From contig DUSX01000017.1 of NCBI GenBank assembly GCA_012842395.1, forward strand, positions 1-64,000: DNA of 64,000 bases. Reading direction: 5' to 3'. Below are positions 13,372-26,322 of the stretch, in pieces. Every line of letters starts with the position of its first letter. Positions within the stretch are counted from its first letter, which is position 1. Below the pieces are notes generated by a model. It searched no databases. It saw nothing but the letters and a program-made list of their open reading frames with translations, and was not told the origin of the DNA. The position numbers were made by a program, and so were the translations under genes. The DNA comes from Bacillota bacterium. Its GTDB lineage: Bacteria; Bacillota; SHA-98; UBA4971.

Positions 13372-14496
13372 TCACAGCGCGGCGAAAGCCTCAAGAACCT
13401 TGCGCACGTCCAAGTTGACCGGGCAGTTCTCGACGCAGCGCCCGCACCCCACGCACGCTACAACTCCGTTGTTCTCGACGAAGTAGTTGAACTTATGCAT
13501 GATCCTCTGCCTGAACCTCTCCTTGCGGGACGGCCGCGGGTTGTGGCCAGACGCGTGGAGCGTGAAGAGGGGGAACATGCACGAGTCCCAGTTGCGCACC
13601 CTCTCCCCGCCTGTCCTCGTGGCTTCGTCGCCTATGTCGAAGCAGTGGCACGTGGGGCAGAGATACGTACAGACCGCGCAGCCAAGGCATTTCCGGTACG
13701 CGTCATCCCACGCAGGGTGGCCGAACGCGCCTTCGAGCCTCGATACGGCCGCGTCCACCGGAACGGCCCGGCTGGCCATGCGCGCCTCCGCCCTCGCCCG
13801 GGCTTCCCCCGAGGCCTCGAATTCCGCCTCTCCGGCCTCCCGCAGCGCCTCGAACCCTCGAATGAGATCCTCGCCCTTCGCTGACAACAGCCTCACTAGA
13901 TACGCCTCGCCCACCTCAGCGAACACGACGTCCGAACCCGTCTCGTCGAACGGGCCGCCCCCAACAGACGTGCAAAAACAGGCCACACCCGGCTCGGGGC
14001 ACGCGAACGTGACCACCGCCGTCTCCCTGCGTCGGCTGACGTAGTACGGGTCCCTGTGGTCGGCGGCGTCGAACACAAGGTCGAGGAGGGTCAGGCTCCG
14101 CGCGTCGCACGGCCGCGCCCCGAAGGCGACCCTGACCACGTCGGATGGAGAGGATACCAGCCGTTCGTCTCGTGCCCGCGCCCGTCCACGGTCATCCCCG
14201 AGTGCCGGTGCCTTCACGCCGGCCGCCGTCTCGATCCCACCATGCGCGTCGAAGGCGAAGAGCGTCTCCTGCTGCGGGAAGAAGAGCTCCTTCAAGGGCC
14301 TCGTCGAAAGAAACGGGTCGCCCTCAAGGCTCCGAGCACCGCGGGCGCCGTCAGGACACGCGGCGACAAAACGAGTCACCCCTCCCTCGTCCACCGGAAC
14401 GAAAACCACGTACGAGGCCGCCAAATGGGTAACGAATCGGCCGAGGTCTCGTTTAGTCATCACAAGAGCTTTCCGGGGCCGCCCCTCTTCCAGCAT
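13372..14496 (-). CDS. 4Fe-4S electron-transfer subunit (FlxB/AsrA/HyhB-like)
   Basis: This is a 374-residue cytoplasmic iron-sulfur protein with two ferredoxin-type motifs at the C-terminus: CLGCAVCTYLCPTCHC (about residues 257-272) and CVGCGRCVENCPVNL (about 348-362). The N-terminal two thirds (VRVAFGARPCDARSLTLLDL; AVVTFACPEPGVACFCTSVG) are those of the beta subunits of sulfhydrogenases and AsrA-type sulfite reductases. The start ATG 14496 (MLEEGRPRKALV) has AGGTG upstream; a longer frame to 14598 lacks this. It would relay electrons between FlxA and the Hdr/MvhD modules. Confidence 0.8.
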   Translation of the reverse strand: MLEEGRPRKALVMTKRDLGRFVTHLAASYVVFVPVDEGGVTRFVAACPDGARGARSLEGDPFLSTRPLKELFFPQQETLFAFDAHGGIETAAGVKAPALGDDRGRARARDERLVSSPSDVVRVAFGARPCDARSLTLLDLVFDAADHRDPYYVSRRRETAVVTFACPEPGVACFCTSVGGGPFDETGSDVVFAEVGEAYLVRLLSAKGEDLIRGFEALREAGEAEFEASGEARARAEARMASRAVPVDAAVSRLEGAFGHPAWDDAYRKCLGCAVCTYLCPTCHCFDIGDEATRTGGERVRNWDSCMFPLFTLHASGHNPRPSRKERFRQRIMHKFNYFVENNGVVACVGCGRCVENCPVNLDVRKVLEAFAAL

Positions 14497-14594
14497 GCGT
14501 AGTTCACCTCGGGGCCGCAAAACTCGCTCCCGCAGCACATTCCGACCGCCCGTACCGCTCGAGCATCCCCGACGCTTTCCTGCCCGAACCCTGC

Positions 14595-15590
14595 TCAAAG
14601 GATGAAATCGCCGGGGTCTTCCCGCTTATACGTCGCAAACACCGGCACGGCCGTAAGGTCCACGCCCGGCTCGTGCCCGAAAAACTCGAGTACATCCTTC
14701 TCTATACGTTTCGCGAGGAGCCTGAGATCGATCCCAGCGGGGCACGCCCTTCTGCACGCGCCACAATCCACGCACCGGCCCGCCGTGTGCAGGACGCGGC
14801 CGAGGTGGAACACCATCTTGTCGGAAAGGTCGCGCCACCTGCCGACCCACTTCGGGCTCTGGCGGTCCACGAAGCATTCGGGGCAGTAGCATAAAGGGCA
14901 TGCCTGCCTGCATGCGTAGCACTCTATGCAGCGCTCTATTTCCCGCGCGAAATACGCGAAGCGTTCCTCCGGGCCCCGACTCGCGAACGCATCCACATCG
15001 CTGTACGCCTGCTCCTTTGGGCACGCCCGCCGAGCGGCCTCATCATCGCCCGCCAGGAAGTCGTGGACGACGGGCACAGGATGGGTGCACGCGACGCAGG
15101 ACGCCGACAGAACATCCTCAATTGGAACGGCTTTCTCGAAGCCGTCACCCGCGACCACGACCACGCCGTCCGCGGTCTCCGCGGCGCTGCGGATAGTCTC
15201 GTGCCCCTCCCCGAGAGCAGCCGCAAGCTTCCGGCGGTCGACGACGCCTCCGCATGGCACGCCCACGATCTTCACATCGTCGCGACGTACTTGCCGCTCG
15301 ATGATGAGGTTCACGAGCGCGCGCGCGTCGCAACCCTTGACCACCACGCCCACCCGCCCTTTGGGCTCGGGCAGGTAGACAGCGAGGTTGTTCTCACACA
15401 TGTGGTTCCATACCAGGCGCGACACGTCGTCCGGGCGCGTCAAGAAGGCAGGGGACGTTCGAAGAGGAAGGGTCCCCTCCTCATATCCGATGAAGACATC
15501 GATCTCTCCCGTGGCAAGCAGGTCCGCCGCGATCTCCCGGAGCCGCCCGGCGACCTCCGCAGTCCGGCCCGATGAACCCCGTGTGAGCAT
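14595..15590 (-). CDS. 4Fe-4S dicluster subunit (FlxC / FrhB-like)
   Basis: This is a 331-residue iron-sulfur protein. The N-terminal half carries the FrhB/FdhB-like pattern GVVVKGCDARALVNLI, then KIVGVPCGGVVD. The C-terminal half has CIECYACRQACPLCYCPEC (about residues 222-240) and CVDCGACRRACPAGID (about 272-287), room for two [4Fe-4S] clusters. Its ATG starts directly after the stop of the upstream MvhD gene with no spacer, indicating translational coupling. Together with the next gene it makes the Flx iron-sulfur relay. Confidence 0.8.
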   Translation of the reverse strand: MLTRGSSGRTAEVAGRLREIAADLLATGEIDVFIGYEEGTLPLRTSPAFLTRPDDVSRLVWNHMCENNLAVYLPEPKGRVGVVVKGCDARALVNLIIERQVRRDDVKIVGVPCGGVVDRRKLAAALGEGHETIRSAAETADGVVVVAGDGFEKAVPIEDVLSASCVACTHPVPVVHDFLAGDDEAARRACPKEQAYSDVDAFASRGPEERFAYFAREIERCIECYACRQACPLCYCPECFVDRQSPKWVGRWRDLSDKMVFHLGRVLHTAGRCVDCGACRRACPAGIDLRLLAKRIEKDVLEFFGHEPGVDLTAVPVFATYKREDPGDFIL

Positions 15591-16046
15591 TTACCTTTGC
15601 CTCTCCTTCACGAGCCTCGTGGGTTTGCCGAGCGCCTTCACGCTCTCCGTCACGCGCCTCACGACGTCGGCGAACTTCTCGCCCTCGGCCGCGGACACCC
15701 ACGAGAAGTGCACCCGGCCTCTCTCGATGCCGACGAAATGGAGCAGATCCGCGAGGAGCGCAAACTTCCTCCTCGCAAGGTAATTCCCAGCTATGTAGTG
15801 GCAGTCTCCAGGGTGGCACCCCGATACGAGCACCCCGTCAGCCCCTTGCTGCAGGCACTTCAGAATGAGGAGCGGATCTACCCGGCCCGAGCAGGGCACG
15901 CGGACGATGCGCACGTTGGGCGGGTACTGCATCCGGCTCGTCCCAGCAAGGTCGGCACCCGCGTAGGAGCACCAGTTGCAGAGGAAAGCCACGATCCTTG
16001 GCTCCCACGCCTCGCCAGTCTCGTCACGGGCGCGGCCCGGGGCAAT
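15591..16046 (-). CDS. MvhD-type [2Fe-2S] subunit, second copy
   Basis: This is a 151-residue protein that links an HdrA to an electron donor, as MvhD does between hydrogenase and HdrA. Conserved cysteine blocks are FLCNWCSYAGADLAG, VPCSGRVDP and GCHPGDCHYIAGNY. The frame is open back to 16223, but that part overlaps the end of the upstream HdrA and does not look conserved. The only strong ribosome site in the gap, AAGGAGGG at 16051-16058, precedes an in-frame ATT (16044-16046), so an unusual AUU start is possible. A start further upstream without a ribosome site is the alternative. It sits between the tandem HdrA and the FlxC-like gene. Confidence 0.8.
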   Translation of the reverse strand: MAPGRARDETGEAWEPRIVAFLCNWCSYAGADLAGTSRMQYPPNVRIVRVPCSGRVDPLLILKCLQQGADGVLVSGCHPGDCHYIAGNYLARRKFALLADLLHFVGIERGRVHFSWVSAAEGEKFADVVRRVTESVKALGKPTRLVKERQR

Positions 16047-16117
16047 AGAACCCTCCTTGGTGGCCCGCGGGTCCTCCGCCCCGTCGCAAGCCCGTTGCCG
16101 TCCAAAGTGCTCAACGT

Positions 16118-19100
16118 TTAGCAAAGCGCGCCCACCTCCGCGAGGAGCTCCTCGTCGGTGAACCCCTTGAGTGTGATGGCGCCGCACCGACACGTCGCCG
16201 CGCACAGGCCGCACCCTTTGCACAACGCCGGGTTCACCTCCGCGACGTTTTCGACGGCGTCAATCTCGATGGCCTTGTACTGGCACACTTCGGCGCACAG
16301 GCCGCACCCAGCACACCGCGTTTTCGTGACCTCCGACTTTATCCCCTCGGTGGTGATGGCGCCGCGAGCGAGCAATGCGGAGGCCCTCGCTGCCGCCGCA
16401 TGGGCCTGGGCGATGGTCTCATCGATGGTCTTCGGCGCATGAGCGAGCCCTGCGAGGAAGACGCCCTCCGTGGCAAAATCCACCGGCCTGAGCTTCACAT
16501 GGGCCTCCAGGAAGAACCCGTCCTCGTCCAAGGGCACCTTGAGCATCTGCGCCAGCCTGCCGTTGCTTTCGTTCGGCACTATCCCTGCGCTCAGGACCAC
16601 AAGATCGGCGGGAATAGCGAGCCTTTCGTCGAGGAGCGTGTCTGTGACCTCCACGACGAGCCGCGAGCCGAGGGGCGGTCCCGGTCGTGACACCACCGGC
16701 ATCTGCCCCTCGGGGTATCGCACGAACACCACCCCTCGGCGCCGCGCCTCTTCGAAATAGACCTCCATTTTACCGTAAGTGCGAATGTCCCTGTAGAGGA
16801 TGTACACCTCCGCGTCAGGAGCCGCCTCTTTGATCCGGATGGCATTCTTCACGGCCTCGCTGCAACACACGCGGCTGCAGTAGCCGCGTTCCTCGTCGCG
16901 CGAGCCCACACACTGGATCATGACCACCGACGCCGCGCCGCGGCCCCGGGGGCCCAAGCAACAGCTTTCCCTCACGCTGCCCTGCCCGCCGCGGCACGCC
17001 CCGGGCAGGTCTGTCCCTTCGGCTGCGCCTTGCCGCGAGGGCCCCAGGTCTCGGTCTCGCGCAGGTTCCAGGCCGGCCCACCGCGCCTCCCGGGCCACCG
17101 GCCGAAGCCCGGACGCCAGGGCCTTCTCGAGCTCGGACTGGGTCACGACAGCCGGATGCTCCCCGTACAGGAACCCGGCCGGGCGGTGCTCCTGCGCGCC
17201 CGTCGCGACGATCACCACACCGTGACCCACCACGAGCTCACGGATTGCGCCCGCCTCCCCGTCGCCCCGGCTCCGGTCCACCACGCGTGACCGAAAGTTC
17301 CCGACGTACCCCGCGACCTCGGTCACCTCGGACGATGTGTGAACCTCTATCAAGGGATGGGACTCAACCCTTCTCGTGAGGTCTCGCAGGAACGCTTGGA
17401 CGTCCTCCCCGCTCAACGTAAAGTAGATGCCCCGCAGGTGGCCGCCGAGCTCGGCGCAAGCCTCCACAAGGTAAACCTTGAACCCCTGGTCTGCAAGGTC
17501 CAACGCCGCGATCATCCCCGCGAGCCCCCCGCCGATCACAAGGGCGGACTTGTCGACCTGTATCGGCACGCGCTCGAGTGGCTCCAGGAGCGCCGCCTTG
17601 GCCACAGCCGCGCGAACCAGATCCTTCGCCTTCTGGGTGGCCTTCTCGGGCTCGCGCATGTGGACCCAAGAGCACTGGTCCCGTATGTTCGCCATCGCGA
17701 AGAGGTAACGGTTGAGTCCCGCCTCCCGGATCGTCTCCTGGAAAAGCGGTTCGTGCGTGCGGGGCGTGCACGAAGCCACCACAACCCGGGTGAGCCCGTG
17801 CTCCTTGATCTTCTCCTGGATCCTCTTCTGGGTGTCTTGCGAGCAGGTATACAGGTTTCGCTCGGCGTACACCACATTCGGGAGGGTCCTCGCGTACTCC
17901 ACGACCGCGGGAACGTCCACGACCCCGCCGATGTTTATCCCGCAGTGGCACACGAACACGCCAATGCGCGGGCCCACTCCCCTCAGGTCCTTTTCGGGAG
18001 GGTAGAGCTTCTCGCGGACTCGCGTCCCGCGGGCGCCTCTGAGAAGCGTTCCAACCACGCCTGCGACCCCGCTGGCTTGCGTCACGGTCTCGGGGATGTC
18101 CTTCGGGCCTTGCATCGCGCCGCATACGTACACGCCGGGCCTGGTGGTGGAAAGGGGATCTAACGGGCCCGTTTTCGCGAACCCGCTTTCGTCGAGGTCT
18201 ATTCCAAAGACCCGCGCAAGCCGCTCAACGTTGTCTGGGGGCTCGAGCCCCACGGAGAGCACGACGAGGTCGAACTCCTCCTTCGCGACCGTGCCGTCGC
18301 CCCGCTCGAACGACACGATGAGGTTATGGGTCGCGGGGATCTCGGACACCCCGGCAACCCGCGTGCGGATGTACCTCACGCCGTGCTCTGTCTTCGCCCG
18401 CTCTACGTATGCATCAAACCTCTTCCCATAGGACCTCATGTCCATGTAGAAGATGGTCGCCTGGATGCCCGGCGCATGCTCCTTCGCGATCACCGCTTCT
18501 TTCGTCGCATACATGCAGCACACGGAGGAGCAGTAGCGGGCCCCACGCGCCCGGTCGCGCGACCCGACGCACTGTATGAAGGCTATCCTCTCGGGAACGT
18601 CGCCGTCGGACGGGCGCAGCACGCGCCCCTCATACGGCCCTGAGGCGCTCAGGATCCTCTCGAATTCCATGCTGGTGAGGACGTTCGGATATCTGCCGTA
18701 CCCATACTCGTCACGGAGCGACGGGTCTAGAAGGCGAAATCCGGGAGCGAGCACGATCGCTCCCACGGAAACCGTACGCTCGCGCGGCGCGTCGTCGTAG
18801 CGGATGGCGCCGGCGAGGCACATGTTCTCGCACAGGCCGCACCCGACGCACGCGTCGCGGTCTATCACATAAGTGAGGGGCACCGCCTGCGGGTAATCGA
18901 TGTAAATGGCGGGCCGCCCCGTGAGCCGCGCGTTGAAGGTGTCGCGGGCCGCTCCCACAGGGCAGTGCTGAGCACAAATGCCGCACCCTGTGCATTTCTC
19001 GGCGTCAACATAGCGCGGCCTGCTCGACACGGTCACCGTGAAATCCCCGGGCCTCCCTTCGACTCTTTCCACCGTGGAATTGGTTATCACTTCAATGTTG

Positions 19101-19339
19101 AGGTGGCGTCCGCACTCGACCAACTTGGGAGAGAGTATGCACATCGAGCAATCGTTCGTAGGGAATGTCTTGTCCAGTCGCGCCATGGCGCCGCCGATGG
19201 CCGGGCTCGATTCCACGACGTACACAAAGAAGCCTTGCTCCGCCAGGTCGAGCGCGGCCTGCATGCCTCCGATGCCCCCGCCGACCACTAGCACCGCACC
19301 CACAGCCTCTCCACCTGAACCGCTCGCCCCGCAACCCAT
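16118..19339 (-). CDS. hdrA: tandem-fused HdrA (long form)
   Basis: This is a 1073-residue flavoprotein made of two HdrA units joined head to tail. Unit 1 (about residues 14-440) has the FAD fold (GAVLVVGGGIGGMQAALDL), the Cys segment FPTNDCSMCILSPKLVE and two ferredoxin motifs (CTGCGICAQHCPVG; CVGCGLCENMCLAG). A linker domain with VFVCHCGINIGGVVDV (about 460) is the usual HdrA N-terminal domain of unit 2. Unit 2 has ALVIGGGLAGMIAALDL and CVGSRDEERGYCSRVCC. The C-terminus carries CAGCGLCAEVCQYKAIE and CKGCGLCAATCRCGAI. In unit 2 an Arg/Gly/Pro-rich insert of roughly 50 residues (about 745-800) interrupts the normal join before CVGSRDEE. HdrA is the bifurcating FAD centre of heterodisulfide reductase complexes. 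Fused long forms occur in other anaerobes; why this block has a second HdrA is unclear. Confidence 0.88.
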   Translation of the reverse strand: MGCGASGSGGEAVGAVLVVGGGIGGMQAALDLAEQGFFVYVVESSPAIGGAMARLDKTFPTNDCSMCILSPKLVECGRHLNIEVITNSTVERVEGRPGDFTVTVSSRPRYVDAEKCTGCGICAQHCPVGAARDTFNARLTGRPAIYIDYPQAVPLTYVIDRDACVGCGLCENMCLAGAIRYDDAPRERTVSVGAIVLAPGFRLLDPSLRDEYGYGRYPNVLTSMEFERILSASGPYEGRVLRPSDGDVPERIAFIQCVGSRDRARGARYCSSVCCMYATKEAVIAKEHAPGIQATIFYMDMRSYGKRFDAYVERAKTEHGVRYIRTRVAGVSEIPATHNLIVSFERGDGTVAKEEFDLVVLSVGLEPPDNVERLARVFGIDLDESGFAKTGPLDPLSTTRPGVYVCGAMQGPKDIPETVTQASGVAGVVGTLLRGARGTRVREKLYPPEKDLRGVGPRIGVFVCHCGINIGGVVDVPAVVEYARTLPNVVYAERNLYTCSQDTQKRIQEKIKEHGLTRVVVASCTPRTHEPLFQETIREAGLNRYLFAMANIRDQCSWVHMREPEKATQKAKDLVRAAVAKAALLEPLERVPIQVDKSALVIGGGLAGMIAALDLADQGFKVYLVEACAELGGHLRGIYFTLSGEDVQAFLRDLTRRVESHPLIEVHTSSEVTEVAGYVGNFRSRVVDRSRGDGEAGAIRELVVGHGVVIVATGAQEHRPAGFLYGEHPAVVTQSELEKALASGLRPVAREARWAGLEPARDRDLGPSRQGAAEGTDLPGACRGGQGSVRESCCLGPRGRGAASVVMIQCVGSRDEERGYCSRVCCSEAVKNAIRIKEAAPDAEVYILYRDIRTYGKMEVYFEEARRRGVVFVRYPEGQMPVVSRPGPPLGSRLVVEVTDTLLDERLAIPADLVVLSAGIVPNESNGRLAQMLKVPLDEDGFFLEAHVKLRPVDFATEGVFLAGLAHAPKTIDETIAQAHAAAARASALLARGAITTEGIKSEVTKTRCAGCGLCAEVCQYKAIEIDAVENVAEVNPALCKGCGLCAATCRCGAITLKGFTDEELLAEVGALC

Positions 19340-19392: not shown

Positions 19393-20235
19393 CTACACCC
19401 TGGCGCCCCGCAGCACGTACCTTGGCGAGTGGCCCAGCACGTCATATGGCTCTATGACGCCCCGGCGCTTCAGATAGGCGGCCTGTTCCAGGACGATCTG
19501 CGCCGAGACTCCGAGACGCGCGGCGATGTCCTTGACCGACACGGGCGCCTCCGCGGCGAGCACCTCTATGGCCGCACGCACGCACTCATCTGCGATGACG
19601 CCTTGCAGCAGGGTGGCCACCTTCTCCGGCAAGATCCTCTCGCCATACACGTTGCCCTGCTCGCAAAGGGCCTTGCTACGCCCCACGAGCCACCTGAACC
19701 TCTCGCTAGCAGCCACGCGTCTTGCGATCTCGCTCCGAAACACGAACTCGTCCCGCGAGAGCCCTTCTCTGGATGCGGAGCCTCCGCCCGCCGGGCCGAG
19801 GGCCCTCACTTGCTCGACAAAGCAAGACACCATGTCCGCGAATCTGGCACCCTCTGCCGCCAAGACCCAGTCGAGATACAGCCGCGCACGATCAATCCCG
19901 AGATGATCGAACACCATCCACAACGTGCGGACCCGCTGTTCCGCCTGATAGTTCCCGCTCAGGTAGTGGCAGTCCCCGGGATGGCATCCGAGCACCATGA
20001 CCGCGTCAGCCCCGCGAAGGAACGGGTCGACCATTATCTCCGGGTCCACACGGCCGGAGCACATGACGCGGACGATGCGGAGGTTCGCGGGATAGGCGAG
20101 CCGCGACGTGCCCGCAAGGTCGGCTCCTGCGTACGAACACCAGTTGCACAGGAATCCGATCACCCGTGGTTCAAACCTTTGGAGCTCTTGCCCATCTTCC
20201 CTGCGCACAGGACCCCCGGACGCGAGACCCGCCAT
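19393..20235 (-). CDS. MvhD-type subunit with C-terminal winged-helix extension
   Basis: This is a 280-residue protein. Residues about 20-150 are MvhD: FLCNWCSYAGADLAG, VMCSGRVDP, GCHPGDCHYLSGNY, giving a [2Fe-2S] site that docks on HdrA. The extra C-terminal 110-130 residues end in a helix-turn-helix-like segment (APVSVKDIAARLGVSAQIV, then AAYLKRRGVIEPY) of winged-helix appearance. The start ATG 20235 is 1 bp after the hdrA stop with GGAGGTGG upstream, so it is coupled to HdrA. The tail might bind DNA or only be a structural docking domain; this cannot be decided here. Confidence 0.82.
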   Translation of the reverse strand: MAGLASGGPVRREDGQELQRFEPRVIGFLCNWCSYAGADLAGTSRLAYPANLRIVRVMCSGRVDPEIMVDPFLRGADAVMVLGCHPGDCHYLSGNYQAEQRVRTLWMVFDHLGIDRARLYLDWVLAAEGARFADMVSCFVEQVRALGPAGGGSASREGLSRDEFVFRSEIARRVAASERFRWLVGRSKALCEQGNVYGERILPEKVATLLQGVIADECVRAAIEVLAAEAPVSVKDIAARLGVSAQIVLEQAAYLKRRGVIEPYDVLGHSPRYVLRGARV

Positions 20236-20236
20236 T

Positions 20237-22228
20237 CTAGCCCACCTCCAGGAGCGCTTCCGCCTGCGCAACAAGCTGGCTTGTGGAGTAATGCTTCATC
20301 GTTATCGCCCTCGTGGAGCACGAGGCACCGCATACGCCACAGCCTTTGCACGCAACTTCAACGGCTCTCGCTTTGTACCCCCTGTCGGTCCTTTCCATCT
20401 TGATCGCCCCGTATGGGCAGAGCGTCTCGCATAGCCTGCAGCCGATGCAAAGCTGCTCGTCGATGACCGGGCCAAGCGGGTCCATTTCTATCCGCTCCCG
20501 CGAGCACGTCGCCGCAGCGGCCGCTGCGGCGCCTCCCGCCTGGGCGACGCTGTCAGGGATGTCCTTGGGAGACTGAACGCAGCCCGCGAGGTAGACACCG
20601 TCAATGGACGTCTCGAAGGGGCGAAGCTTCGGGTGCCCTTCCAAGAGGAACCCGTCCGCGCTGCGCGAAAGGTTCAGACGCTGGGCGAGCTCTGCGAGGC
20701 CCCTGGGCGGCGCGAGCCCCACCGCGAGCACCACCAGGTCGAAACGCATGTCGAGAACGCACCCGGAGTCGAGGTCTTCGCAGACCACGCGGAGCGATCC
20801 GTCTGGCTCCCCACGGACCTCGCCTGGCTTGCCCCGAACGAAGACTATTCCCTGCGCTCTTGCGCGCCGATAGAACTCCTCGAACCCCTTCCCGGCGGTC
20901 CGCATGTCGGTGTGGTATACGTACACCTCGATGGCGGGGTCCTTTTCCTTGATCATGAACGCCTGCTTCGCCGTGATCATGCAGCACACGCGGGAGCAGT
21001 AGGCCCCAGCTCCGTCCAGGCGATGCTCGTCGCGGGATCCAACACACTGTATGAACGCCACGCGCTTCGGAGCTCTCCAGTCGCCCGGCCTCTTCAGTTT
21101 GCCGTGGGTGGGTCCGTCGGCGCAGATGATCCTCTCGAAGTCGAGACTGGTGATGACATTGGGGTAACGGCCGTAGCCATACTGCGGCTTTTTCGACGCG
21201 TCGTATGGCTCGAACCCTGCAGCCACGACGATGGCGCCGACCTCGACCGTCTCCACGCGGTCAGTCTGGTCAAGCGCGATCGCACCGCGCTCGCACACCT
21301 TGTCGCACACCCTGCACTTGCCCTCTGTCAGATACCTGCAGTGTTCCACGTCGATCACATACACGGGCGGAATGGCCTGAGGAAACGGAATGTAGATTGC
21401 CTTCCGCTCACCCATGCCACGGTTGAACTCGTCGGGCGCCCTCACGGGGCACTTGGACGCGCACTGCCCGCAACCAGTGCACTTGGCCTCATCAACGTAG
21501 CGTGCCTTGCGTCTCAGTTGCACTCGGAAGTCCCCGACCTGACCATCGACTTTCTCCACCTCAGAGTAGCTCAAGACCTCGATATTCTCATGCTCGGCGA
21601 CCTCCACCATTTTGGGTGAAAGGATGCAGAGGCTGCAGTCAAGGGTCGGAAACGTCTTGTCGAGCATGGCCATATGGCCTCCGATGGACGGCTCGCGCTC
21701 AACGAGATAGGTCTTTATCCCCGTATTGGCCAGGTAGAGCGCGGCGGATATTCCCGCAACGCCGCCTCCCACCACCATGGCCTTGGGCACGACCCGCCCC
21801 TGGCTGCGAGAAAGCGGGACGAGAAGCCTCGCCCTGGCCACAGCCGACCGCACGAGCGCCTTGGCCTTCTCCGTTGCGGCCGCAGCGTCACCCGGGTGCA
21901 CCCATGAACATTGCTCCCGTATGTTCGCCATCTCGAGAAGGAACGGGTTGAGACCGCACTTTTCAAGGAGCGTCCGAAACGTCTTCTCGTGAAGCCTCGG
22001 CGAGCAAGACGCGATCACCACGCGGTCAAGCGCGAAGTTCCTGATGTCGTCGGCGATGGTTTTCTGCCCGACCTCGCTGCAAGTGTACTTGTTGTCGCGG
22101 GCGATCACCACCCCGTCGAGCAAGGAAGCGGCCTCCCTCACGGAGACCACGTCGACAACGCCGGCGATGTTAAGGCCGCAGTGGCACACGTAAACGCCGA
22201 TTCTCGGCTGTGGCGTAGATGCCCGCAT
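20237..22228 (-). CDS. hdrA: heterodisulfide reductase subunit A
   Basis: This is a 663-residue standard-size HdrA, the bifurcating FAD and iron-sulfur subunit. The N-terminal domain starts VYVCHCGLNIAGVVDV. The FAD fold AMVVGGGVAGISAALYL is near residue 150. The Cys-bearing FPTLDCSLCILSPKMVE, an inserted ferredoxin (CTGCGQCASKCPV) with an atypical second site (CRYLTEGKCRVCDKVCERG), and C-terminal CIGCRLCETLCPYG and CKGCGVCGASCSTRA follow. The start is placed at ATG 22228 (MRASTPQ); a longer frame to 22255 is possible. It is followed at 1 bp by the MvhD gene and preceded by hdrB with about 160 bp of GC-rich, low-complexity spacer. Confidence 0.9.
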   Translation of the reverse strand: MRASTPQPRIGVYVCHCGLNIAGVVDVVSVREAASLLDGVVIARDNKYTCSEVGQKTIADDIRNFALDRVVIASCSPRLHEKTFRTLLEKCGLNPFLLEMANIREQCSWVHPGDAAAATEKAKALVRSAVARARLLVPLSRSQGRVVPKAMVVGGGVAGISAALYLANTGIKTYLVEREPSIGGHMAMLDKTFPTLDCSLCILSPKMVEVAEHENIEVLSYSEVEKVDGQVGDFRVQLRRKARYVDEAKCTGCGQCASKCPVRAPDEFNRGMGERKAIYIPFPQAIPPVYVIDVEHCRYLTEGKCRVCDKVCERGAIALDQTDRVETVEVGAIVVAAGFEPYDASKKPQYGYGRYPNVITSLDFERIICADGPTHGKLKRPGDWRAPKRVAFIQCVGSRDEHRLDGAGAYCSRVCCMITAKQAFMIKEKDPAIEVYVYHTDMRTAGKGFEEFYRRARAQGIVFVRGKPGEVRGEPDGSLRVVCEDLDSGCVLDMRFDLVVLAVGLAPPRGLAELAQRLNLSRSADGFLLEGHPKLRPFETSIDGVYLAGCVQSPKDIPDSVAQAGGAAAAAAATCSRERIEMDPLGPVIDEQLCIGCRLCETLCPYGAIKMERTDRGYKARAVEVACKGCGVCGASCSTRAITMKHYSTSQLVAQAEALLEVG

Positions 22229-22387
22229 CGCACCGTCACACCACCTTTGCGTCACGTCACACCTATCGCTGTGAAGCCTCGTCAGCCGCGCTCGCCGCGC
22301 GCTGGCCGCGCTTGCCGTGCTCGCCGCAACGCGCGTCGCTCGTCTGCTGGCCGGGCGCGGCTCGCCGCCATGCAGCCCGGTGGCAGC

Positions 22388-23260
22388 TCATGAGATCTTC
22401 GCCAAGAGCGCCTTCGGCTTTATGGGATTCTGGGAGAGGCCCAGCTCTTCAGCGTCGATGCCCATGGCAAGCCCCAGGACCTGTGGATAATAGAGGATTG
22501 GGAGGTCGTACCTGGTGCCATACTTCGCCTGGATCTTGCGCTGGTTCGCTCCGTACATGACGCTGCAGAACGGGCATATCAAATTGATGGCGTCGGCCCC
22601 GTGGGCCTTTATGTCGTCCAGCTTCGCCCGGCTCATCTGAAGGGCAATGTTCTCGTCCACCCCGAGGATCGCGCCGCCGCAGCACTCCTTCTTTGTGGCG
22701 TAGTCGACGGGCTCAGCTCCTGTGACGGCCACGAGCATGTCGAGGGACCTGGGCACTTCGGGGTGGTCGAACCCGTCGTAGATTCCGGAAGGCTTGAGGT
22801 AATGACACCCGTAATGAGACGCAATGCGAAACGCATCGAGCGGCCGTCTTACCGTCTTCTTGACCCTCTCCAGGCCCACGTCTTCGTATATCACGCGTGC
22901 CAGGTGTTTCACCTGTACCTTGCCGGAATACCTCCGTCCGATCGCTCCGAGGCGTCGGTTCACCTCCTCAAGCAAACCCTCGTCCGCCGCGAGTTGTCGG
23001 GCCGTCTCGGTCAAGACGGACGTGCACGCGCTGCACAAGGTGCAGACGTCACACCCCTTTTCCTCGGCCAAAGAGAGATTCCTCGCCGCGAGGAGCAGCG
23101 ACGTTTCGTGGTGAACCGACTTCACCGGGTAACCGCAGCAGCCAAAGTCCGGGATGTCGGCAAGCTCGATGCCGAGTTCAGCGGCTACGCGCCTTGCGGA
23201 CAGCTCATAGCTGAGATTACGCACTGGGACCGTGCAACCCAGGAATATCGCGTACCTCAC
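22388..23260 (-). CDS. hdrB: heterodisulfide reductase subunit B
   Basis: This is a 290-residue catalytic subunit with two CCG domains. Motif 1 runs from FLGCTVP through DFGCCGYPVK to CTLCSACT; motif 2 from SHYGCHYLKP through KKECCGGAI to LICPFCSVM. These bind the two noncubane [4Fe-4S] clusters that cleave disulfides in methanogen HdrB, and all ligand cysteines are visible. The start ATG 23260 is 6 bp after hdrC. In bacteria the acceptor is unknown; a protein or small-molecule disulfide is inferred. Confidence 0.93.
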   Translation of the reverse strand: MRYAIFLGCTVPVRNLSYELSARRVAAELGIELADIPDFGCCGYPVKSVHHETSLLLAARNLSLAEEKGCDVCTLCSACTSVLTETARQLAADEGLLEEVNRRLGAIGRRYSGKVQVKHLARVIYEDVGLERVKKTVRRPLDAFRIASHYGCHYLKPSGIYDGFDHPEVPRSLDMLVAVTGAEPVDYATKKECCGGAILGVDENIALQMSRAKLDDIKAHGADAINLICPFCSVMYGANQRKIQAKYGTRYDLPILYYPQVLGLAMGIDAEELGLSQNPIKPKALLAKIS

Positions 23261-23266
23261 CGCTCA

Positions 23267-23797
23267 TCACGCACCTTTGCGGGAAAGTAGGTCTGCGAGC
23301 CCCGTCATCCCGAATATCTCCACCGCCTCGACCAAGTCGCTCTGAAGAGCCGGAAGCCCGAGTTCCGCGCGCTTCTCGTTGGTAAACTCGTCGATCTCGT
23401 ACAGCCGCCCGTGTCCGCCGACGAGCTCAGCCTGCGCCCGGAAGGCTGGGTGTATGTACCCGGCCTTCACGGCCATGTTCTTGAGGGCGTTCATCACCTC
23501 GGTGATTCTCACGTCTTGCGGGCAGCGCTCATAGCAGGTATAGCAGGTAGAACACAGCCAGATGAAATCGCTCGACAGCACCCGCTCCCGCATCCCGAGG
23601 ATCGCCATGCGTATGATGCGTCGCGGGTTATACCTGCTGTCGAGCTCCGCCACGGGGCACCCTGACGTGCACGTGCCACACTGGAAGCAATACTTGATGT
23701 TCTCGCCCCCGGGCTCGCGGGCGATCTCGTGCTTGAACTCGGGATCGAGGACGGTGACGACCGCTCGGTCTTTCTCTCCCCACGTGCCGGACTCCAC
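23267..23797 (-). CDS. hdrC: heterodisulfide reductase subunit C
   Basis: This is a 176-residue ferredoxin-like subunit that wires HdrA to HdrB. The two [4Fe-4S] motifs are CFQCGTCTSGCPVAEL (about residues 37-52) and CSTCYTCYERCPQDV (about 81-95). GTG 23797 has AAGGGGG at good spacing; TTG 23803, two codons upstream, is the alternative. It is the first of the hdrCBA run, transcribed leftward. Confidence 0.92.
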   Translation of the reverse strand: MESGTWGEKDRAVVTVLDPEFKHEIAREPGGENIKYCFQCGTCTSGCPVAELDSRYNPRRIIRMAILGMRERVLSSDFIWLCSTCYTCYERCPQDVRITEVMNALKNMAVKAGYIHPAFRAQAELVGGHGRLYEIDEFTNEKRAELGLPALQSDLVEAVEIFGMTGLADLLSRKGA

Positions 23798-24013
23798 GGC
23801 CAAAACCCCCTTGCGATGCAGCCTGCCGAAATGGCAGGACGCTCAATGCAGATCGCCGCAAACCCCGCTGCTTTTCAGCGCCGAGGTGCCGTCTAGGGCT
23901 GCCGGCGTCGCCCTCCGACGGGGGTTCGCCCCGCGTGGCGAATCGTTCGAATCCAGCGCCCGGGCTAGCCGGATTTGCGGCGCCCCATCGTGCAAGCCCT
24001 GGCAACCCTGACG

Positions 24014-24041
24014 CGCTCAGGACGAGACGCTCAGGACGAGA
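24014..24041. repeat. 14-bp perfect tandem duplication
   Basis: The unit CGCTCAGGACGAGA occurs twice in direct succession in the 318-bp gap between the gcvH-like gene and hdrC. It could be slippage or a regulator binding pair. Nothing else was recognised in the gap. Confidence 0.6.
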
Positions 24042-24115
24042 GACGAACACTCATGTCATGGCTCCCTCCTGCCCAAGCGTCGTCAAGACCGCGCTCGCCG
24101 TGTCGTTCACGCCGC

Positions 24116-24541
24116 TCATTTCGCGTGCTTTTCTATCTCTTCCTCGAGCCACCTGACCGCCCTGTCTCCCCGCATCAGATTCGCCAGCTGCGCGGGATCA
24201 TCCATTTTCACCTTGAAGACCCAGCCCTCTCCATACGGGTCTGTGTTCAGAAGCGTCGGGTCGTCTTCCAGATCCTCGTTCACCTCGATGACTTCGCCGG
24301 TGACAACCGCGTACACGCGTCCCACCCACTTGCCGGATTCGACCGCGGCCGCGGGCTTTCCTTGGTGCACCTTCCTGCCGACCGCCGGGAGATCCACCGA
24401 CACGAACTCCCCCGCAAGCTTCTGGGCGAAGTCGTTGATCCCGACCGTCACGACGTCGCCCTCCACCCTGCCCCAGCTATGATTCGGCTCGTAGTAGAGG
24501 TCGTCCGGGAGAAGGTAGCCTTTGACTTCCACCCGCTCCAC
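24116..24541 (-). CDS. gcvH: GcvH-like lipoyl carrier protein
   Basis: This is a lipoyl-domain protein of about 141 residues. The core runs from GYLLPDDLYYEPNHSWGRVE through VGINDFAQKLAGEFVSVDLP to the lipoylation hairpin AAVESGKWVGRVYAVVTGEV, with Lys in the ESGK motif where classical glycine-cleavage H proteins have ESVK. The C-terminus EEEIEKH is longer than usual. No gcvT or gcvP is nearby; instead it heads the Hdr/Flx block. Lipoate-binding GcvH relatives (LbpA) work with sulfur-oxidising sHdr complexes, so a role as a lipoyl substrate of this Hdr is an attractive inference. The GTG 24541 start is uncertain, as several in-frame GTGs are close. Confidence 0.8.
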   Translation of the reverse strand: MERVEVKGYLLPDDLYYEPNHSWGRVEGDVVTVGINDFAQKLAGEFVSVDLPAVGRKVHQGKPAAAVESGKWVGRVYAVVTGEVIEVNEDLEDDPTLLNTDPYGEGWVFKVKMDDPAQLANLMRGDRAVRWLEEEIEKHAK

Positions 24542-25580: not shown

Positions 25581-25764
25581 GGGCAACTGGTGGAGGAAGG
25601 ACAAGAGCCAATGCACGACACCCTTGAGTCGCCTCAATAACTGCGAATTCGGGTGACCTTGGCGACGGCGACGGCTTTGTGGGCCTCGGTCGGGGTGAGG
25701 CATCATAGTGTGGGAGATTTCAGCAGTCTCACGCACGCTTACTCAAAAGGGAGGGGTTTCAGGC

Positions 25765-26322
25765 ATGGATGTGACGATAGGTAGAACCTTGCTGAGGCTC
25801 GTCCAAGGCGACATAACCCAACAGGAGACAGACGCCATAGTGAACGCGGCAAACTCGGAGCTCGCTGGAGGCGGGGGCGTGGACGGTGCCATCCACAGGG
25901 CAGGCGGGCCAGTGATCTATGAGGAGTGCGCACGGATACGCAAGGAAAGGGGACGCCTTCCTGCGGGGCAGGCGGTGATCACCGCTGGGGGTCGACTCAA
26001 GGCGAAATACGTCATCCACACCGTAGGACCGGTTTGGCACGGCGGCACCCACGGTGAGGAGGAGACTCTCGCAAGCGCCTACCGCAGCAGCCTCAAGCTC
26101 GCCACGGAGCACGGCCTTCGAACGGTGGCGTTTCCCTCGATCAGCACGGGGGCTTACGGGTTTCCGGTTGAGCGGGCCGCCCGCGTCGCATTGCGTGCTG
26201 TGAAGGATTTCCTAGTGAGCCCAATGGGACGGGCCCTTGACGAAGTTCGGTTCGTGCTCTTCAGCTCCAGAGATCTCGAGGCGTACGAAAAGGCGCTCGC
26301 GGACATCCACCGCTCCGCGTGA
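25765..26322 (+). CDS. macrodomain protein (ADP-ribosyl/O-acetyl-ADP-ribose hydrolase)
   Basis: This is a 185-residue single macrodomain of the MacroD/YmdB class, which removes ADP-ribose from proteins or deacetylates O-acetyl-ADP-ribose. ATG 25765 follows GGGAGGGG. Motifs are [20 protein letters not shown] (residues about 15-34), the [14 protein letters not shown] loop, HTVGPVW, and the phosphate loop [10 protein letters not shown]. Length is typical. It stands alone, convergent with the membrane protein gene 25 bp away. Confidence 0.93.

Follow-up and report, generated by a model that had tools for sequence, protein, structure and literature searches.

The lipoate-binding proteins (LbpA) of sHdr-type sulfur oxidation are defined by a lysine and by two conserved cysteines close to the two termini, some archaea being exceptions (Cao et al. 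2018, PMC6067878). Sulfur binding and an Lpd-mediated reoxidation were suggested for them (PMC6067878), and they are left unmodified by the machineries of E. coli or B. subtilis (PMC10332631). In Culexarchaeia, a GcvH encoded beside HdrA2B2C2 was proposed in 2022 to present a disulfide to HdrB (PMC9723716). The second acceptor of the Moorella MetVF-HdrCBA-MvhD complex is not known, and GcvH was weighed as a partner of MetVF and deemed unlikely (PMC8760232). Free lipoate and dihydrolipoate had no effect on the HdrCBA-MvhD-MetVF system in membranes of S. ovata (PMC9430772). What HdrABC reduces in bacteria lacking both CoM/CoB and DsrC has long been a gap in knowledge, and the Moorella and Sporomusa papers still leave the acceptor unnamed. 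The FlxABCD-HdrABC of sulfate reducers was reportedly described by Ramos et al. in 2015, a study that PMC9430772 cites, as an HdrABC with MvhD- and HydB-like Fe-S subunits.

The window analysed here is a stretch of 64,000 nucleotides from a Bacillota genome (G000; 3.14 Mb, 98.3% complete), in which the gene for a stand-alone lipoyl-type protein, here called Hlip, is the first of a cluster of Hdr genes. The favoured reading, with a probability of about 0.55, is that Hlip acts as a dedicated lipoyl carrier of a cytosolic HdrABC-MvhD flavin/Fe-S complex and that its disulfide is turned over at HdrB. The idea of a lipoyl disulfide for HdrB has already been published for the archaeal GcvH and fits Hlip; both are GcvH-like proteins encoded beside Hdr genes, but the Culexarchaeial one is archaeal and linked to an Ehe hydrogenase, and is likened here by gene neighbourhood (PMC9723716). 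The methylene-THF reductases of Moorella and Sporomusa share the HdrCBA-MvhD module, and metVF lies upstream of Hlip in sister genomes; the two papers report no lipoyl protein in the clusters that they describe (PMC8760232, PMC9430772), and G000 is without MetV. MvhD- and HydB-like Fe-S subunits accompany HdrABC in the Hlip cluster as in FlxABCD-HdrABC, but no FlxA-like NAD subunit was seen in the cluster. DsrC was found neither in this genome nor elsewhere in its class and was rejected as an alternative disulfide partner. No description of a cysteine-less lipoyl protein of the KW type (defined below) with HdrABC-MvhD or GlcDF was found in the open-access papers searched.

Hlip and the Hdr cluster in the window

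The sequence-only reading had placed an ESGKWVG-bearing protein of lipoyl type at 24116-24541 beside HdrCBA. This was confirmed, with a match to Pfam GCV_H (PF01597; 141.7 bits, E=1.4e-41) and with HdrC, HdrB and HdrA next on the strand. The genes are all on one strand, in the order Hlip-HdrC-HdrB-HdrA-MvhD-HdrA2-MvhD2-FrhB-like-HydB-like.

24116..24541 (-): Hlip, putative GcvH-fold, LbpA-like lipoyl carrier, stand-alone, 141 aa (Pfam GCV_H, AlphaFold2 model)
24320..24340 (-): ESGKWVG motif of Hlip (sequence, alignment, model)
24329-24331 (-): codon of the predicted lipoyl lysine, Lys71 in the listed numbering (sequence, alignment)
23267..23803 (-): HdrC (TIGR03290 4.5e-39, below cut-off)
22388..23260 (-): HdrB (PF02754 twice; TIGR03288 5.8e-81, below cut-off)
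20237..22255 (-): HdrA, flavin and Fe-S, 672 aa (NF040770 HdrA2 3.2e-266, below cut-off)
19393..20274 (-): MvhD/FlpD with C-terminal extension (PF02662 9.9e-49)
16118..19339 (-): HdrA2, double-length HdrA, 1073 aa (NF040770 in three stretches, 1035 bits, below cut-off)
15591..16223 (-): MvhD2, second MvhD/FlpD (PF02662 6.4e-55)
14595..15590 (-): FrhB-like Fe-S protein (PF04432 1.6e-4 and Fer4 families)
13372..14598 (-): HydB/ShyB/AsrA-like Fe-S subunit (NF040829 2.2e-47, below cut-off; PF17179)

The Hlip reading frame is a genuine gene; compared with four relatives its dN/dS is 0.05-0.09, which shows purifying selection. Translation more likely begins at GTG 24532 than at 24541, because the homologue in L009 begins at that position. 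Hlip contains no cysteine and scores above the NCBIfam cut-offs for GcvH (TIGR00527, 122.6 vs 115.85; NF002270, 148.7 vs 117), and the NCBIfam matches of HdrA, HdrB, HdrC and the HydB-like protein fall below the curated ones. An AlphaFold2 model made from seven input sequences (pLDDT 77.9) places Lys71, which is invariant across all Hlip sequences of alignment A2, in the turn of a predicted beta-hairpin between strands 63-69 and 72-77. The closest solved folds are true H-proteins, the best PDB match being that of T. thermophilus (1onl, TM 0.80); GcvH-L (5a35) is a weaker match (TM 0.68).

All parts of an HdrABC-MvhD complex are encoded beside Hlip. The motif scan of HdrB gave two intact CCG motifs (9-41/42-76-79 and 152-193/194-229-232), those needed for two non-cubane clusters. 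HdrC has two [4Fe-4S] motifs with eight cluster cysteines (Cys 39, 42, 45, 49 and 84, 87, 90, 94), HdrA has the FAD domain, and MvhD is present. The true start of MvhD2 is internal, the FlpD domain being residues 77-199 of the listed ORF. The FrhB-like gene is kept in L004-L007, L009, L010 and the archaeal L158, and the HydB-like gene is likewise a conserved member of the cluster. The gap between Hlip and HdrC (window 23804-24115) measures 312 bp; several relatives (L004-L007, L010) have a shorter one of about 20-110 bp. The Rfam matches in the window are two tRNAs only.

A gene for a macrodomain protein (25708-26322, plus strand) separates the Hdr cluster from the pfk/fba/pyk genes. It is very improbable that Hlip is a lipoyl relay or store, or a redox-stress switch of the GcvH-L type tied to this gene. 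The macrodomain protein is encoded 1.2 kb from Hlip and the GcvH-L fold is matched to some degree, but the gene is on the other strand from Hlip, no ligase is found beside Hlip, and true H-proteins are the closer folds. The macrodomain gene is near Hlip in L004-L006 and was not found beside it in L007-L010; the link was rejected as not conserved. By the strand and conservation of this gene, Hlip is also unlike the GcvH-L/SirTM module, an operon with macrodomain, SirTM and ligase genes.

Hlip, GcvH and LbpA

The locus had been described as one without glycine cleavage genes. For the 64-kb window this is correct, as no gcvT, gcvP, lpd or lipoate-assembly genes were found in it with tblastn. It is not correct for the genome, where contig C9 encodes a complete glycine cleavage system that includes a GcvH (gcvT-gcvH-gcvPA-gcvPB-lipS1-lipS2-lplA; lysine motif DSMK) and contig C34 encodes Lpd. 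Hlip is thus neither encoded with gcvT/gcvP nor the sole GcvH of the genome. In the glycine cleavage operon (L003, 8148-16195) the lipS1, lipS2 and lplA genes are directly downstream of gcvPB, an arrangement that is identical in an archaeal genome (L126). The ligase of this operon is the sole lipoate-ligase-like gene found in G000; a second PF03099 match was rejected, as its sequence reads as a BirA-type biotin ligase.

The tree of the H-protein family (89 proteins, 138 columns) does not settle the deep order. The glycine-cleavage GcvH proteins form a separate clade (support 100/95) with Hlip outside it. The clade containing the window Hlip (100/98) is placed beside the HdrCBA-linked proteins of G245, G028, G129 and G391 (93/82), and the sHdr LbpA proteins form a clade of their own (100/97), apart from Hlip in the best tree. 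In the AU test, one clade of the window group and the genome's own GcvH was rejected (p=0.002); a joint clade with sHdr LbpA (p=0.19) and one clade with all glycine-cleavage GcvH (p=0.24) were not rejected. Hlip is therefore not the housekeeping GcvH, a candidate that is also rejected by the gcvH of the C9 system and by the separate GcvH clade. The clustering with housekeeping GcvH that the sequence-only reading had named as its counter-case was not found. By sequence Hlip is a paralogue separate from the housekeeping GcvH, which it matches in fold and overall sequence and from which it differs in lysine motif, gene neighbours and clade.

ESGKWVG is present where ESVK would stand, but the motif is no oddity. 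In the sequences compared it marks a broad LbpA-like branch, true sHdr LbpA included, and it is unremarkable outside true GcvH. ESGK alone was rejected as a diagnostic feature, since the L101 H-protein with ESGKVASD groups with true GcvH. The L101 protein adjoins genes that read like CODH/ACS.

True LbpA was found in the sHdr loci of G331, G420, G422, G426 and G628, and in the first three its lysine motif is identical to that of Hlip. Hlip also shares with LbpA the GcvH fold and the adjoining Hdr genes or CCG proteins. The parallel drawn earlier between the two proteins holds for the lysine motif and for a conserved, class-exclusive link to HdrCBA, but not for membership in the sHdr system. 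Both LbpA cysteines are missing in Hlip, which has Tyr9 at the position of the N-terminal one. LbpA is encoded with sHdr genes and DsrE/TusA sulfurtransferases; DsrE2 (PF13686) was not found in G000, nor was sHdrB/sHdrB1 beyond weak general similarity to HdrB, and Hlip was rejected as a true sHdr LbpA on these three absences. The dedicated sLpl-LipS1/S2 set that is usually part of the sHdr cluster is also missing beside Hlip in the window. By the defining cysteines Hlip is not an sHdr LbpA, yet, judged from its neighbours, it is LbpA-like in having an Hdr partner.

A sulfur-oxidizing role, in which dihydrolipoyl-Hlip would take up sulfane sulfur and the Hdr proteins would release sulfite, is a rather unlikely account of the locus. 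The shared motif and the joint clade not rejected by the AU test are consistent with it, as are the DsrE-type genes beside Hlip-HdrCBA in G245, G028 and G129, the nearest kin outside the class, with an ArsR gene too in G245 and G028. The missing cysteines, the lack of DsrE2, sHdrB and DsrC in the genome, the separate LbpA clade and the HdrABC-MvhD type of the Hdr genes beside Hlip all argue against it.

Conservation within the class and proposed mechanism

The order Hlip-HdrC-HdrB-HdrA-MvhD-HdrA2-MvhD2 is kept down to 72% Hlip identity (L004-L007, L009, L010; the comparison is interrupted by a contig end in L008). Of 17 genomes in the class, 14 contain Hlip (E below 1e-60), and exactly those 14 also encode an HdrB with 72% identity or more, always adjacent. 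Neither gene was found in G006, G014 or G016. Outside the window, G000 encodes another HdrB-like protein, which is less closely related (34% identical; C17:205624-206469, minus strand); the one further H-protein of G000 is encoded on another contig.

An extra hdrA and metV-metF are directly upstream of Hlip in L005, L009 and others. Hlip could on this account be a second one-carbon H-protein that links glycine cleavage, methylene-THF and MetVF-HdrCBA-MvhD by transferring aminomethyl groups or reducing equivalents. The missing second acceptor in Moorella and the AU test, in which a clade with all glycine-cleavage GcvH is not rejected, are in line with such a role. It nevertheless seems unlikely: the glycine cleavage system has its own GcvH, the motif is ESGKWVG instead of that of GcvH, and MetV was not found in G000 and seven other relatives that retain Hlip-HdrCBA. 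With MetV missing in these eight genomes, the Hlip-Hdr unit does not require it, and a strict dependence of Hlip on MetVF was rejected.

Because Hlip is distinct from GcvH and always found with the Hdr complex, its bound disulfide is suggested to be the missing natural partner of the complex. The role as a carrier is supported at the sequence level by the fold, the lysine motif, the gene order, the strict co-occurrence with HdrB within the class, the separation from GcvH and the CCG motifs. Lys71 would be lipoylated, probably by the LplA encoded beside the glycine cleavage genes together with LipS1/LipS2. The lipoyl disulfide would then serve as a 'heterodisulfide' attached to a protein. It would dock on HdrC/HdrB, and the non-cubane clusters of HdrB would reduce or re-oxidise it. 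Electrons would pass via HdrC to the flavin of HdrA, where they could be split, or joined with those of a low-potential carrier entering via the MvhD, FrhB-like and HydB-like subunits. Lpd/NAD+, or some disulfide or persulfide partner, may close the remaining half of the lipoyl cycle.

The E0' of lipoyl is about -290 mV, with NAD at -320 mV and ferredoxin at -420 to -500 mV. Lipoyl at this potential is a poor acceptor for NADH, and therefore either a donor of lower potential than NADH or a confurcating direction is expected; in the latter the complex would oxidise dihydrolipoyl together with reduced ferredoxin. The low potential for a bifurcation acceptor counts against Hlip as the carrier, and so do, by analogy, the inert free lipoate and dihydrolipoate in the S. 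ovata system. A further point against it is that no dedicated ligase or LipS gene lies beside Hlip in the window, unlike in most distant relatives. Hlip, being small, soluble and genetically tied to the complex and having a natural disulfide if lipoylated, is a concrete and cheap candidate for the disulfide of HdrB. If the assignment is correct, the roles of lipoate extend past sulfur oxidation, glycine cleavage and the 2-oxoacid dehydrogenases to a partnership in flavin-based electron bifurcation.

The wider family

Profile searches covered 398 Bacillota and 243 Thermoplasmatota genomes, after which the gene neighbourhoods were retrieved and the neighbours labelled by BLAST against hand-named references. 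KW-type proteins were defined by [ST][GASDE]KW[VTA][GA], by which the lysine is kept by definition. Neighbours of Hdr/GlcF type (CCG or HdrA/MvhD) were found for 51 of 57 KW-type proteins and for none of 35 SVK/SMK-type proteins (Fisher 1.5e-19, a descriptive value only, since the rows share ancestry and the search started from Hdr-linked proteins). Glycine cleavage genes adjoin 30 of the 35 SVK/SMK-type proteins.

The HdrCBA-linked relatives of Hlip (G245, G028, G129, G391) often occur with DsrE genes and with lipoate ligase/LipS1/LipS2. Other relatives adjoin GlcD-GlcF, of which GlcF is a CCG-type protein; most of these loci, too, contain ligase and LipS genes. In Thermoplasmatota the relatives of Hlip are found with HdrA-MvhD, and the pairing of a lipoyl protein with Hdr thus occurs in both Bacillota and Thermoplasmatota. 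It is possible, as a tentative generalization, that outside methanogens the CCG-type enzymes, HdrABC-MvhD as well as GlcD-GlcF, generally have as their physiological disulfide the lipoyl groups of LbpA-like carriers in these two groups. The sulfur-oxidising sHdr-LbpA would in that case be a specialised offshoot, with cysteines, of a broader lipoyl-redox system.

A fusion protein of 440 aa in L119 (G403; 15214-16536, minus strand) consists of a response-regulator receiver, an H-domain (134-275) and an HdrC (276-440), the last 64% identical to the HdrC of the window. The fusion adjoins an intact Hlip, HdrB and HdrA. Its H-domain is without the lipoyl lysine and therefore suggests that the H-fold docks at HdrC, but does not speak for redox by that copy. 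H-domains of this kind in relatives would also suit an Hlip that is an unmodified structural subunit of Hdr, its lysine carrying no lipoyl group, as would the lack of a dedicated ligase in the genome when even LbpA is left unmodified by the E. coli and B. subtilis machineries (PMC10332631). Such a subunit is quite improbable, as the lysine is invariant in Hlip (and, through the defining pattern, in its KW-type relatives) and the genome has LplA and LipS1/S2. Several further H-domain proteins in which the lipoyl lysine is missing were seen in L023 and L120 (Deltaproteobacteria SKW240) and in L119 (7772-8698); their N-termini have Cys-rich or membrane segments.

KW-type proteins directly beside GlcD-GlcF (an FAD oxidase and a CCG Fe-S protein) were seen in L091, L094-L097, L100, L102-L105, L124, L152 and L154. 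These loci mostly contain lipoate ligase, LipS1/S2 and a GGR-like flavoprotein, and sometimes genes for acetoin-dehydrogenase-like E1/E2. In L100, L102, L104, L094 and L097, two different H-like proteins are encoded a few kb apart, one with LQSGKWAGK and the other with IETGKWVGR or IESGKWVGK, the latter kind branching beside true GcvH in the tree.
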